From Deltaproteobacteria bacterium RBG_13_61_14 (GTDB lineage: Bacteria; RBG-13-61-14), in contig MGQK01000090.1 in NCBI GenBank assembly GCA_001797815.1, positions 7,104-12,401 of the forward strand: DNA of 5,298 bases, read 5' to 3'. This document shows, in pieces, positions 1 through 4,131 of this stretch (the first letter of the stretch is position 1; each line of letters starts with the position of its first letter). The notes beneath the pieces were generated by a model. It had not been told where the DNA came from. It was given only the letters and a program-made list of their open reading frames with translations, and searched no databases. The position numbers and the translations under genes were made by a program.

Positions 1-730
1 TGGGTTCATAGCCGATGGCGCTGGCCCCTTCCTTGGAGAGCAGGGGCTGGATGGTCCCGGTCACGTCCTTGGCGCTGATGTATTCCAGCGGGATGAACCG
101 GGTGACGAAACTGTCGGTGACTGATGGCCGGGTTCCCCCGAAATAGGTCGGGATATTCGAGCGCAGAACTTCGGCGTTACGCACCACCCGATACAGGTTG
201 GGCACCGCGGTCTGGACGATGTTGTAACCGTTCAAGTTGAGAATGACCAGGAAGATTTTTTCCGCCTGGCTCTGGGGAATCTTGGTCGGCGAAATAATGG
301 TGATCTTGCCCTTGGGCACATCTTCCAGGATAAAGTTCTTGCCCAGGATTTCACTGAAGTTCTTGATGACTTCCTGCAACTCCACGTCCTGAAAGTTAAT
401 GCTCAAGCCTTCCTCGGCCGCCTCCGGTTTGGTCTCTTTCCCGGCCGGCCGGCGCGGGGCGGCGGCTTCCGGCTGGCTGGGAGGCGCGGCCGGCGCTTCG
501 GCCGAGGGTGCTGGCGCCGGGGGGGGCGGTGGCGGGGGCGGAACTTCGGCCGGCACTGGCGCGACGGTCTGGGCTGGCGCTGCCGCCGGCGGTCTTCGAC
601 CCTGAGGCTCAGACCCGAAGGGCACGGGCTCCGCTCCGGGTTCTTGTGCGATCACCGCCGGCCCCAGGCTCAGGCCGATCAATCCCGCCCCCATCAGCCA
701 GGCTCCTGGCCGCCATCTCCGGGTTTCCAC
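1..730 (-). CDS. gspD: Type II secretion secretin GspD, N-terminal part (cut by window edge)
   Basis: Outer-membrane secretin that forms the exit channel of the T2SS. The 243 visible codons begin at a GTG at 730, chosen because AGGAGG lies 9 bases upstream and because a signal peptide follows at once: basic RRWR, hydrophobic core around residues 11-23, likely cleavage after A28 (VIA/QE). Residues 29-108 form a Pro/Ala-rich linker with eight consecutive prolines (64-71). From residue 109 (LSINFQDVELQEVIKNFSEI, then KGKITIISP) comes the secretin N0 domain. An N1-type segment starts near FVTRFIPLEYISAKDVT. The remaining N domains and the membrane-embedded secretin core lie beyond position 1. The gene starts 31 bp after the gspC stop, so it is very probably in the same operon. 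Family assignment is firm; the long linker before N0 is seen directly, and its role is unknown. Confidence 0.93.
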   Translation of the reverse strand, partial: METRRWRPGAWLMGAGLIGLSLGPAVIAQEPGAEPVPFGSEPQGRRPPAAAPAQTVAPVPAEVPPPPPPPPAPAPSAEAPAAPPSQPEAAAPRRPAGKETKPEAAEEGLSINFQDVELQEVIKNFSEILGKNFILEDVPKGKITIISPTKIPQSQAEKIFLVILNLNGYNIVQTAVPNLYRVVRNAEVLRSNIPTYFGGTRPSVTDSFVTRFIPLEYISAKDVTGTIQPLLSKEGASAIGYEP

Positions 731-761: not shown

Positions 762-1730
762 CTATTGCACGTTGTAAACGAAGTTCACGCTTTGCTCTTG
801 GCGGTCAATATCAATGGTGAAATGCTTTTCAAAGCGAAGCTGCTGCAGCAGCTCGAACCCCCGCTCGATATTATCCATCTTGACCCCGTTGATCGCCTTG
901 ATCACGTCCCCGTTGCGCATCCCCAGCTTGTTGAAGAGGCTGTTGTCGCGGATCCGGAAAATGCGAAAGCCGTCGGCGACTTTCTGCTCGCCTTCTCCCA
1001 CCAGGTTCGGGACCAGCCGGGCGTCCTGGAGCAGGCTGTTGAGGTTCTGCAGCGACTCGTTGATCACCGCCTGCTCGATCACGAATTCATGGTCCGAAAC
1101 CTGCCGGATCCGGTTGTCAATCCCCATCGCCTTCCGATACTCCGCCAGTTTGCGCTCCCGCTCGCTCTCCGGAACCTTCGCAATATCGGGCCGGTAAGCA
1201 TCCCCGGGGGTTCCCCCCAGCTTGGTGAAATCTTCTTCCTCCAAGGAGAACTCTTCTTCCCGCCCGCTCGCATAGCGCACTCGCGCCTTCTTCTCTTCAA
1301 TCGCCGCCATCACCACCCCGGGCTTGACCTCAGCCCCCACCTTGAAAACTTCGCTCCGGTTTTCCTCCAGCATCTTCATCGTCGCCCGGTTCCAACTGGA
1401 ATCCCGGCCAAAATAAATGATCCCCAGGAGTTTGGCCCGGAGCGAGGCTTCAGTGGCGGCCACGTTCTCGCCCGCGCCTGGGGTGGCGGAAGGGATCACC
1501 ACTGCGAACAGGTTTCGCTGGACAATCGCCTCCCGGTTCGGAATATAGCCCCCGCCCGTCAAACTGGAGGCCGAAACACTCACCCTGGGCGCGGGAATGG
1601 AGCCGATGAGATACTTGGAGGCCAGGTAGGCGTTCAGGGTCCCGGCGGCAAAATAGCACACCCCGAAAATCAGGACCAAGGTGACCACCCAGAGGTATTT
1701 GAAGAAAAACTCTTTTAGATTCATGGTCAT
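762..1730 (-). CDS. gspC: Type II secretion inner-membrane protein GspC with PDZ domain
   Basis: Bitopic inner-membrane T2SS component that links the inner-membrane platform to the N0 domain of secretin GspD. Numbered from the ATG at 1724: one membrane anchor (about 11-30, YLWVVTLVLIFGVCYFAAG); the homology region (about 65-160), with RNLFAVV and then LRAKLLGIIYF; a charged linker (about 160-235); and a C-terminal PDZ domain (about 245-320) containing FRIFRIRDNSLFNKLGMRNG and DVIKAINGVKM. Length (320-322 aa) is normal for GspC. Two ATGs, at 1730 and 1724, are possible starts and neither has a good Shine-Dalgarno site. The frame stays open back to a TTG at 1802, but that TTG and an ATG at 1775 lie inside the -35 and -10 boxes of a promoter, so they are unlikely starts. 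gspD follows after 31 bp. Identity rests on domain order plus the adjacent secretin. Confidence 0.9.
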   Translation of the reverse strand: MTMNLKEFFFKYLWVVTLVLIFGVCYFAAGTLNAYLASKYLIGSIPAPRVSVSASSLTGGGYIPNREAIVQRNLFAVVIPSATPGAGENVAATEASLRAKLLGIIYFGRDSSWNRATMKMLEENRSEVFKVGAEVKPGVVMAAIEEKKARVRYASGREEEFSLEEEDFTKLGGTPGDAYRPDIAKVPESERERKLAEYRKAMGIDNRIRQVSDHEFVIEQAVINESLQNLNSLLQDARLVPNLVGEGEQKVADGFRIFRIRDNSLFNKLGMRNGDVIKAINGVKMDNIERGFELLQQLRFEKHFTIDIDRQEQSVNFVYNVQ

Positions 1731-1746
1731 AGTGATCGGACCCGGT

Positions 1747-1763
1747 TTAAGTAAATTACTTAA
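1747..1763. promoter_or_regulatory. Perfect 17-bp palindrome, candidate operator of gspC
   Basis: TTAAGTAAATTACTTAA has two perfect 8-bp arms around a central A at 1755. It lies about 5-20 bases downstream of the predicted gspC transcription start, a position typical of repressor sites. A near copy (15 of 17 bases) lies at 1874-1890 beside the divergent XRE gene. XRE-family repressors commonly bind such palindromes as dimers, so the neighbouring regulator is the natural candidate ligand. Binding is inferred. Confidence 0.6.
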
Positions 1764-1773
1764 TTTTAGCTCC

Positions 1774-1802
1774 ATCCTAAAGTAAGAACCCGAAATTGTC
1801 AA
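1774..1802 (-). promoter_or_regulatory. Sigma70-type promoter for gspC-gspD
   Basis: Read on the minus strand: TTGACA (1802-1797), a 17-base spacer, then TAGGAT (1779-1774). This is a consensus -35 with a 4/6 match to the -10. The start is expected near 1767, giving a leader of about 37-43 bases before the gspC ATGs. The location, directly upstream of a T2SS operon in AT-rich DNA, supports it. Confidence 0.65.
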
Positions 1803-1824
1803 GCTAAATCTCGACTTTTAACTT
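1801..1824. promoter_or_regulatory. Imperfect dyad overlapping both divergent -35 boxes
   Basis: The segment AAGCTAAATCTC / GACTTTTAACTT pairs at 9 of 12 positions around a centre at 1812.5. It touches the -35 boxes of both divergent promoters. Its arms (AAG-n-TAAA) loosely resemble the arms of the 17-bp palindromes on either side (AAGTAAA). It could be a third, weaker binding site that acts on both promoters together, or chance symmetry in AT-rich DNA. Confidence 0.3.
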
Positions 1825-1850
1825 GACATTCTCCCTATATTGTGTAATAA
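1823..1850 (+). promoter_or_regulatory. Likely promoter of the XRE / membrane protein / REC-PilZ operon
   Basis: TTGACA (1823-1828), a 16-base spacer, then TAATAA (1845-1850). The -35 is perfect; the -10 matches only 3 of 6 positions, so this promoter should be weaker or activator-dependent. The start is expected near 1857, about 50 bases before the GTG at 1906. It lies back to back with the gspC promoter, with 20 bp between the two -35 boxes. Confidence 0.5.
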
Positions 1851-1873
1851 ACAAAGTAAAAAGTTTCAAGAAA

Positions 1874-1890
1874 TTAACTAAATAACTTAA
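1874..1890. promoter_or_regulatory. Second copy of the palindrome, candidate operator of the XRE operon
   Basis: TTAACTAAATAACTTAA matches the perfect palindrome at 1747-1763 in 15 of 17 bases and keeps 6 of 8 symmetric pairs. It ends 15 bases before the GTG start of the XRE gene and lies just downstream of the predicted transcription start. Its centre (1882) is 127 bp from the other centre (1755), about 12 helical turns, so one protein could occupy both sites on the same face. Autoregulation is inferred. Confidence 0.5.
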
Positions 1891-1905: not shown

Positions 1906-2352
1906 GTGAACCGGTTTGGCGAATACCTCAAGCAAAAGCGCAAGGAAGCCGACCTGACCCAAGAAGACCTGGCGCGGGCACTCAAAGTTTCCAATACCTA
2001 TATTCATCAGTTGGAAACCAGCAAGATTGATGCGCCCACCGAGCGCCGTTGCCGGCAACTGGCCGCGGTCTTGAAGGTGCCTTCCCGCGAGCTCGACGCC
2101 ATGGCCAAGCAGGAGCGGCTCAAGCGTTTTGCCGAGCGCGTGGGCCTCGGCCCGATCCTCGAGCTCGAGCGCGGTCAAAATAGCGACGAGCTTTCTCCCC
2201 TCAGCCCCGCCGAGCGGGCTTTGCTCAAGCTCTACCGCAAACTCGACCTCGAGACGCGCCGGGAGTTTAACGGGTTGATCGCCATGCTCTTCCGGCATTA
2301 CCCGGAAGAAGAGATCCAGGCCAACCTGCGCGAGTACCTGCGCATCGCCTAG
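1906..2352 (+). CDS. XRE-family helix-turn-helix transcriptional regulator
   Basis: Cytoplasmic DNA-binding protein of 148 aa. An N-terminal HTH_3/XRE domain spans about residues 4-60: helix 1 FGEYLKQKRKEADL, then TQEDLARALKVSNTYIHQLE (18-37) as the helix-turn-helix, then a closing helix with LAAVLKVPSRELD. Residues 65-148 are predicted mostly helical and charged, with no enzymatic or ligand-binding motif that I recognise; they could serve in dimerisation. The GTG start is supported by GAGGGGG about 6 bases upstream and by the HTH fold beginning within five residues. It is first in a three-gene operon (14 bp before the next gene) and divergent from gspC, with matching palindromes beside both genes. 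That suggests autoregulation and control of the secretion operon. XRE assignment is firm; the targets are inferred. Confidence 0.88.
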   Translation: MNRFGEYLKQKRKEADLTQEDLARALKVSNTYIHQLETSKIDAPTERRCRQLAAVLKVPSRELDAMAKQERLKRFAERVGLGPILELERGQNSDELSPLSPAERALLKLYRKLDLETRREFNGLIAMLFRHYPEEEIQANLREYLRIA

Positions 2353-2366
2353 GAGACGGGTGGGGA

Positions 2367-3122
2367 ATGGCACGGCTGAAAACCCTCGGCGTGATCCTCC
2401 TGGCCCAGGTCATCCTGGCCGCGGCCCTGGGCACGCTCTTCCGCTTCCAGGTCCTCAACGAAAAACGCCAGTTGATCCTCAACTCCAGCGTGGTCGTGCA
2501 ATTCTATTCCTATCAGCCCAACCCCTACCTCACCTCCTACAGCCGTTACTTCTACAACTTCGGCTACCCCTCCCTCACCTCCCTGTTTGAAGACCCCATG
2601 CGGCCCCGCCAAAACCGGAGCATGGACGAGGCCAACTTCAGCCGCTTCTCCATCCTCCTCGAAGACGAGATCCAGAAGTCCACCGACCCCAAGGTCAAGG
2701 AAGCCTACCTGCATCCGCCCGGAAACCGCATCCAGGAATTCGGCGACACCCTCGCCATCAACGCGCTCCTCACCCGCGACTCCGACCGCAAACCCTACGG
2801 CCTCGTCCGCATCAGCCATAATATCAAAAACCTGCCCCGCGACGTCTTCTTCAAAAACGCGCTCCTCTACTTCATCATCATCTTCCTCTACAACTCCCAG
2901 ATCGCCCTCATCTACCTCTACCTCACCCGCCGCAAGCGCCCGGTGGTCATGGACCTCGACCGCGGCTACCTAAAGGAGCACGCCATCGGCGCCCTTAAGC
3001 TCCAGCACCGCATCCTGGGCGATATCATCGCCGACCACGAGACCCTGCCGACCGCGCCCCGCGCGCCGTTGCCCCCCGACGATAACATCGTGCCCTTCGA
3101 GGCCCCCAAGAAAAAAACCTGA
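2367..3122 (+). CDS. Two-span membrane protein of unknown function, sensor-like topology
   Basis: I do not recognise this 251-aa protein. Visible parts: an N-terminal membrane helix (about 6-26, TLGVILLAQVILAAALGTLF); an extracytoplasmic region of about 135 residues (27-162); a second membrane helix (about 163-186) ended by the positively charged RRKRP; and a cytoplasmic tail of about 60 residues finishing in a Pro-rich, then Lys-rich end. The layout copies the sensing half of histidine kinases and chemoreceptors, but no kinase, HAMP, GGDEF or EAL domain follows. Residues 46-67 are rich in aromatics, with seven Tyr and three Phe in 22 positions. The start is the ATG at 2367, with AGGAGA overlapping the upstream stop codon and 10 bases of spacing. 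Gaps of 14 bp before and 8 bp after indicate co-transcription with the XRE and REC-PilZ genes, so a signalling role is plausible but unproven. Confidence 0.8.
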   Translation: MARLKTLGVILLAQVILAAALGTLFRFQVLNEKRQLILNSSVVVQFYSYQPNPYLTSYSRYFYNFGYPSLTSLFEDPMRPRQNRSMDEANFSRFSILLEDEIQKSTDPKVKEAYLHPPGNRIQEFGDTLAINALLTRDSDRKPYGLVRISHNIKNLPRDVFFKNALLYFIIIFLYNSQIALIYLYLTRRKRPVVMDLDRGYLKEHAIGALKLQHRILGDIIADHETLPTAPRAPLPPDDNIVPFEAPKKKT

Positions 3123-3130
3123 GGTCCGCC

Positions 3131-3826
3131 ATGGTCGCCAAGGAAAAGATCCTGATCGTGGACGACATGGAGACCTTCCTCAAACTGGAGAAAATGCTGC
3201 TCGAGCGCTCCGGCTACGAGATCATCACCGCCCGCACCGGCATCGAAGCCCTCAAGAAAGTCCAGACCGAAAAACCCCGCCTGGTCTTCCTCGACCTGGT
3301 CATGCCCGAGATGACCGGCGACGCCGTCTGCCGCTTCATCAAGACCAACAAAAACTTGAAGCACATCCCCGTGGTCATGGTCACCACCAAGGCCGACGAA
3401 TTCAGCCGCGACCGCTGCCACCAGGCCGGCTGCGACGATTACATGACCAAGCCCGTCACCCAGCGCGACTTCTTCGACAAGATCAAGAAGTTCATCAACC
3501 TCGAAAAACGCCGACACCCGCGCGCGCCCATCCGCATCTCCGCCGATTGCATGGAAGGCGAAGTCAGCTACCAATACTACACGGTGGACGTGAGCCAGAG
3601 CGGCATGTTCATTGATACCTTCAAACCCCTGCCGCTCGGCACCGAGATCACCATCAAGTTCTCCCTGCCCCGCCAGGGCGCCCCGGTCCTGGTCAAGGGC
3701 ACCGTTGTCCGCACCGTGCCCCCCTCCCACGCGCCTGAAGGCGCCCGCTCCGGCATGGGCGTCCGCTTCACCAACCTCTCCTCCGAAGACTCCGAAAAAA
3801 TCCGGGCCTACGTGGCCAAAGCCTGA
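3131..3826 (+). CDS. Response regulator: receiver domain fused to a c-di-GMP-binding PilZ domain
   Basis: Cytoplasmic 231-aa signalling protein. The receiver domain (about 5-122) has every expected active-site residue: acidic pair D11-D12, phospho-acceptor D55 in LVFLDLVMPEMTG, T85 in VVMVTT, and K107 in YMTKP. A PilZ domain (about 125-231) follows directly, with the RxxxR motif at R127-R131 (RRHPR) and DxSxxG at D153-G158 (DVSQSG), the two motifs that contact c-di-GMP in known PilZ proteins. It ends with the usual GMGVRFTNLSSED strand and helix. The protein therefore should read both phosphorylation and c-di-GMP; its output is probably a protein-protein contact, since no DNA-binding or enzyme domain is present. 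The start is the ATG at 3131, with GAGG overlapping the previous stop. It is last in the operon. No cognate histidine kinase is visible in the window. Confidence 0.92.
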   Translation: MVAKEKILIVDDMETFLKLEKMLLERSGYEIITARTGIEALKKVQTEKPRLVFLDLVMPEMTGDAVCRFIKTNKNLKHIPVVMVTTKADEFSRDRCHQAGCDDYMTKPVTQRDFFDKIKKFINLEKRRHPRAPIRISADCMEGEVSYQYYTVDVSQSGMFIDTFKPLPLGTEITIKFSLPRQGAPVLVKGTVVRTVPPSHAPEGARSGMGVRFTNLSSEDSEKIRAYVAKA

Positions 3827-3928
3827 TCCCTCCGCCCCGCGTCCGAGCGGGATGAAGGTGGATGTAGACGTGAACGAATAGTAAATGGTAGATGTAATGA
3901 CTCATGAACTTGTCATACAAATCCACCA

Positions 3929-3948
3929 GGCACGAATCCAATCGTGCC
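3929..3948. repeat. Small hairpin inside the left half of the foldback element
   Basis: GGCACGA (3929-3935) and TCGTGCC (3942-3948) form a perfect 7-bp stem around a 6-base loop, ATCCAA. The right half of the element has no equivalent hairpin, so this cruciform competes with the long foldback pairing and partly breaks the overall symmetry. It may be an insertion or a remnant of a second repeat unit. Confidence 0.5.
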
Positions 3949-3959
3949 CTACCAATTTT

Positions 3960-4003
3960 CCCTCACCCTGCCCTCTCCCTGGGGGAGAGGGTTGGGGTGA
4001 GGG
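3960..4003. repeat. GC-rich double-stem hairpin, dispersed intergenic repeat core
   Basis: Outer stem CCCTCACCC (3960-3968) with GGGTGAGGG (3995-4003), inner stem CCCTCTCCC (3971-3979) with GGGAGAGGG (3983-3991), a 3-base loop, and a small internal bulge (TG opposite TTG). That gives 18 base pairs. Translated on the plus strand it reads PHPALSLGERVGVRG, a peptide I know as a recurrent spurious translation of this repeat in many bacterial genomes; that recollection is from general knowledge, not a search. No T-tract follows, so it is not a standard terminator, though such a stem could still impede polymerase or protect RNA ends. Confidence 0.75.
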
Positions 4004-4131
4004 GTAGGGTTTGGATACCTGCCCGAAGCCAAGGTTCGTATGACAAGATATTGAGTCATTACATCTTACCATTTTTCATAAAAGCGAGCCGAGCGACCTG
4101 GCGCCTCTGTTTGCGACTCACCCGCGCCCCG

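Follow-up and report, generated by a model that had tools for sequence, protein, structure and literature searches.

The closest described relatives of the regulator treated here are the autoregulating repressors of the XRE/Cro-cI type, such as SinR, P22 c2, C.BclI, HigA and DdrO. They have the N-terminal HTH fold in common with it, and the predicted arrangement resembles theirs in the short palindromic operators placed in core promoters, the presence of the regulator's own gene in the regulon and the target in the local neighbourhood. The regulator differs from all of them in its C-terminal domain, in the secretion system that would be its target and in the conserved membrane protein whose gene adjoins its own.

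The controls of T2SS genes found in the literature are global regulators. In Escherichia coli, the gspC-O genes are silenced by H-NS and activated by SlyA (PMC5797941). The likeness to the present locus lies in the transcriptional control being located in a divergent intergenic region, there between gspA and gspC (PMC5797941), whereas H-NS and SlyA act on numerous other genes as well and have no palindromic site restricted to those of the T2SS. The out genes of Pectobacterium are reported to be controlled by quorum sensing along with many other genes (PMC2413422). This control also reaches T2SS genes, but it is pathway-wide or global rather than exercised by a local repressor dedicated to the T2SS. 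An earlier reading of the locus, made from the sequence only, knew of no dedicated XRE repressor of a T2SS, and none was found in the open-access full-text literature searched. XRE repressors that control themselves and a divergent target are already known; one with sites limited to T2SS operons throughout a genome was not encountered in that literature.

The locus lies in a stretch of 5,298 nucleotides, which is referred to as the window. The sites described below, their positions and the conservation of the gene pair led us to propose that the 148-aa XRE protein very likely represses its own gene and a small regulon of T2SS genes to which it is dedicated.

The gspC-xre intergenic region

The features of the window are collected in Table 1. 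The gene assignments of the sequence-only reading hold, as GspC scores above the cut-off of its NCBIfam model, GspD carries an N0 domain and XRE an HTH_3 domain (PF01381, 48.3 bits vs a cut-off of 23). The genes gspD, gspE, gspF and gspG and further pseudopilin genes follow gspC in the same direction.

Table 1. Genes, promoters and predicted operators of the window
Feature	Position	Strand	Remarks
gspD, truncated by window edge	2..730	-	PF21305
gspC, first in gspC-D-E-F-G-... operon	765..1724	-	NCBIfam GspC_delta
Operator O2 of gspC promoter, predicted	1747..1763	.	TTAAGTAAATTACTTAA, perfect 8+1+8 palindrome
gspC promoter	1774..1802	-	TTGACA 1802-1797, 17 nt, TAGGAT 1779-1774; good
Degenerate operator O1, putative	1778..1794	-	TTCGGGTTCTTACTTTA, within gspC -35/-10 spacer, 10/16
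xre promoter	1823..1850	+	TTGACA 1823-1828, 16 nt, TAATAA 1845-1850; read from sequence
Operator of xre promoter, predicted	1874..1890	+	TTAACTAAATAACTTAA; 14/16 vs palindromic consensus; 5′ of xre Shine-Dalgarno
xre, 148-aa XRE-family regulator, proposed repressor	1906..2352	+	N-terminal HTH and conserved helical C-terminal domain
Membrane protein, proposed signal partner of XRE	2367..3122	+	conserved cytoplasmic tail; directly after xre
REC-PilZ protein, third gene of xre operon	3131..3826	+	PF00072, PF07238; in G002 too

The two palindromes reported earlier are confirmed. In the one at 1747-1763, all 8 outer pairs are complementary around an unpaired centre base. The copy at 1874-1890 is identical to it at 15 of 17 positions, and 6 of its 8 arm pairs are still complementary. 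Each is located downstream of its -10 box, and both promoters have a TTGACA box, which is present at the xre promoters of the related genomes G002 and G001 as well. The -10 box of xre was rated as the weaker one because the promoter scanner left it unlisted. O2 begins 39 nt from where the gspC -35 box starts. O1 is weak when taken alone, and its right half, TTACTTTA, is intact.

The intergenic region is 181 bp long and has 35% GC, the window as a whole 60%. When this region was put through 5000 dinucleotide shuffles, a perfect 17-mer palindrome with 8-bp arms arose in 39 of them, and such a palindrome together with a second copy matching at 15 or more of 17 positions in none; the expectation across the whole window is 0.00.

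Distribution of the motif among genomes

The palindromic motif at 1747-1763, TTAAGTAAnTTACTTAA, was taken from the window as the search pattern. With at most 2 mismatches it occurs in only three places of the 4.7-Mb window genome (G000), which are the two window sites and a site at C35:9856, so that the scan with the 17-bp motif, proposed as a check in the earlier reading, finds such matches confined to gspC, xre and gspL. The C35:9856 site has 1 mismatch and fills the spacer of a TTGACA-17-TATAAG promoter ahead of gspL-gspM-gspN, an operon whose products match PilM/GspL, GspM and GspN and which represents the other half of the T2SS. The chance expectation at this level (at most 1 mismatch) is about 0.03 matches per genome, as extrapolated from the backward control of the motif in proportion to the number of sequences possible. 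Sites with three mismatches, of which there are 9 against 11 matches at up to 3 mismatches in the backward control, were taken as chance; the one examined, on C71, falls within the coding sequence of an aminoacyl-tRNA-synthetase-like gene. A search with relaxed patterns gave 17/15 matches against 11/10 in the control and no convincing additional target. Model R1 (E<=10) returned T2SS promoters only in the three genomes searched, a result which speaks for specificity rather than independent discovery, as R1 was trained on those same sites.

The comparison within the phylum covers three genomes, G000, G001 and G002; like the other relatives named here, they are metagenome-assembled genomes of uncultured organisms. 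G002 is the nearer to the window (XRE 80% and GspC 62% identical), and its sole site with at most 2 mismatches is a perfect palindrome in the gspC promoter, in the same position as in the window (L002 2091-2107). G001 (XRE 59%, GspC 38%) has two such sites, one at xre and one at gspL. The counterpart of 1874-1890 at its xre gene, the frame of which is broken by a frameshift in the assembly, is TCAAGTAACTTGCTTAA (14/16; L004 1745-1761). The gspL promoter of G002 carries two degenerate copies (12/16 each), and decayed copies (10/16) are found on the xre side in G002 and on the gspC side in G001. The palindromes are conserved in orthologous gspC-xre regions, the point on which the sequence-only reading had made its proposal depend. 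A second gspC locus of G002 (G002:C72, L018/L106) retains xre as a 3′ remnant only and has no operator; it looks as if a deletion had removed most of xre together with its promoter, or as if the contig were a contaminant from a G001-like organism.

A search with GspC over 386 genomes led to G289, which is outside the phylum of the window, and G151 is its class mate. In both, xre is divergent from gspC and is followed by the gene for the same membrane protein. The gspC site of G289 is a perfect palindrome, TTAAGTAAGTTACTTAA, with a centre base other than that of the window (L099 1428-1444). At up to 3 mismatches, the window motif has five sites in the two genomes. Each genome has one at gspC and one at an orthologous lipoprotein gene, and G151 has another at gspL; none was found at gspL of G289 at this threshold. 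The backward control gave 3 and 1 for the two genomes, which makes the counts unremarkable, but not the locations. The lipoprotein gene is the exception to the confinement of the sites to T2SS genes, and here the operator overlaps the start codon, so its conservation could be partly coding. The predicted sites, which extend to gspL and in the second lineage to the lipoprotein gene, mark a regulon that goes beyond the divergent genes. The lipoprotein genes themselves, L121 686-1522 (-) in G289 and L120 713-1549 (-) in G151, are 29% identical, have a weak AgmX/PglI C-terminal-like domain and may encode an extra T2SS component or client.

Among the 386 genomes, orthologs of XRE at E<=1e-20 occur in three lineages only: the phylum of the window, the class of G289 and G151, and Dadabacteria. 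In the 29 other gspC loci, which are without an xre ortholog, the best match near gspC reaches 13/16 in one locus and 11/16 or less in the rest. The Dadabacterial ortholog (about 46% identity) has no adjoining gspC, and the motif is absent upstream of its gene. In genomes with the motif, the recognition helix has the sequence SNTYIHQLE or SNAYIHQLE; in Dadabacteria it is mostly SSVYIHQLE. The Dadabacterial genome G072 has 11 sites with at most 3 mismatches vs 7 in the control; the best adjoins groEL, not a T2SS gene, and there is no clear site near gspC or the PilM-like gene. Shortly upstream of Dadabacterial xre lies a conserved block, TTGTTTTGTTATATACATTAGGTTAAACTTAGC (L028-L036). It contains the imperfect palindrome TTAGGTTAAACTTAG, which has similar half-sites at a shorter distance from each other and is possibly the operator of this branch.

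Position of the sites in the promoters

In six gsp promoters, O1 starts at +8 from the start of the -35 box. These are the gspC promoters of G000, G002 and G289 (O1 matching at 10, 11 and 12 of 16 positions, respectively) and the gspL promoters of G000, G001 and G002 (15, 14 and 12 of 16). O2 starts at +37 to +39 in five promoters, those of gspC in G000, G002 and G289 and of gspL in G001 and G002. The two are spaced by 29-31 bp, about three helical turns, a fixed distance suggestive of two dimers bound on the same side of the helix. For the single clear sites of G151 and of the lipoprotein genes, the start falls at about +28 to +42. Every clear site is located between the -35 box and the early transcribed region, overlapping the promoter core or the transcription start, and none was found upstream of a -35 box. 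Since O1 occupies the -35/-10 spacer and O2 the early transcript, the sites are at positions expected of a repressor.

The earlier reading saw in the window an arrangement typical of a repressor that controls itself and a neighbouring operon, possibly by looping. Its first part is borne out by the positions and the conservation of the sites, which point to a repressor-type operator governing gspC and xre itself. At the xre promoter, the site reaches 14/16 in G000 and G001, but only 10/16 in G002, and no clear own site is present in G002, G151 or G289; autoregulation would accordingly not be uniformly conserved. The looping part is not supported. The centres of the window sites are 127 bp apart, close to 12 turns, but one member of the pair is degenerate in G001 and one in G002, the clear sites of G151 and G289 are on the gspC side only and gspL has no divergent partner site. 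Looping is not favoured because the 127-bp spacing fails to recur and the recurrent spacing is that of 29-31 bp, and it is held to be very improbable.

The XRE protein, its proposed membrane partner and rival readings

The gene xre is the neighbour of gspC in each of the five genomes that have the motif, and for this reason its product is the obvious candidate for the binder. For most of the N-terminal half of XRE, the predicted structure has a pLDDT above 90, and its HTH is closest to those of SinR, C.BclI and phage repressors (P22 c2). SinR, C.BclI and P22 c2 bind palindromic operators. An antitoxin of a toxin-antitoxin system (HipB/HigA-like) was considered and rejected, as the neighbours are GspC and the membrane protein, with no toxin gene, and NCBIfam antitoxin models score far under their cut-offs.

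The gene for the membrane protein follows xre in three lineages (the window genome and G002, G151 and G289, and Dadabacteria), and in G001 it is not adjacent to xre. The protein has no match in Pfam or NCBIfam. Its tail, GYLxEHAxGALKLQxxILxxIIxDH, is strongly conserved and its middle part variable, and we infer that it is an inner-membrane sensor whose cytoplasmic tail would act on XRE.

In the proposed mechanism, a dimer of XRE would bind the palindrome. O1 would fill the -35/-10 spacer of gsp promoters and O2, 29-31 bp further on, would lie at the start of the transcript, where bound XRE would block RNA polymerase; the pairing of the sites may allow cooperative binding. The regulon would consist of gspCDEFG..., gspLMN and the xre operon, with the lipoprotein gene added in the second lineage. 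The membrane protein probably senses the state of the envelope and would signal to XRE via its tail, leading to the relief of repression.

Alternatively, the palindromes could serve another regulator encoded elsewhere, with the neighbouring XRE being incidental. Binding by XRE is itself a deduction, and in G002, G151 and G289 the xre side has either a weak site or none. Against this, the motif goes together with the xre-gspC pair in two lineages and is not seen near gspC genes without xre, and Dadabacteria, which are without the motif, have a different recognition helix. At G002:C72 most of xre is gone and there is no site, though one deletion could explain both. Such a regulator is considered unlikely. 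Less likely still is that XRE acts as an activator or dual regulator of T2SS promoters: some controller XRE proteins (relatives of C.BclI) can activate from upstream sites, but no clear site here lies 5′ of a -35 box, and the T2SS promoters have good -35 boxes. The AT-rich composition of the intergenic region could be thought to produce palindromes by chance, or the repeats could be RNA hairpins or terminators. The shuffles never gave the pair, however, and the motif is conserved across lineages, while the hairpin or terminator reading is contradicted by the copies in the gspL -35/-10 spacers, which are not transcribed; the probability of this explanation is close to nil.

With repression by XRE as the preferred reading, it may further be suggested, tentatively and at somewhat less than an even chance, that XRE and the membrane sensor form an undescribed pair which monitors the condition of the envelope or of the secretion machine and switches the T2SS regulon as a whole. 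The pair would be conserved across candidate phyla and related to the Dadabacterial XRE-membrane protein pair, located two genes from a PilM homologue. A T2SS-only regulon with its own repressor, operator and membrane partner would offer direct access to the timing of secretion in uncultured lineages and to the reasons for its onset, and it makes testable whether the secretion machine reports back on its own synthesis.

Two further observations concern the surroundings of the operon. The GspE protein of the window T2SS (L065 3278-4990 (-)) has an N-terminal MshEN domain with a match to the c-di-GMP motif, which, together with the REC-PilZ gene ending the xre operon, gives a hint of c-di-GMP control. 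Between the REC-PilZ gene and an acetyl-CoA synthetase gene, at 3890-4066 of the window, a 32-nt inverted repeat (88% complementary, copies 113 nt apart) encloses a G+C-rich hairpin and resembles a MITE or another repeat element.
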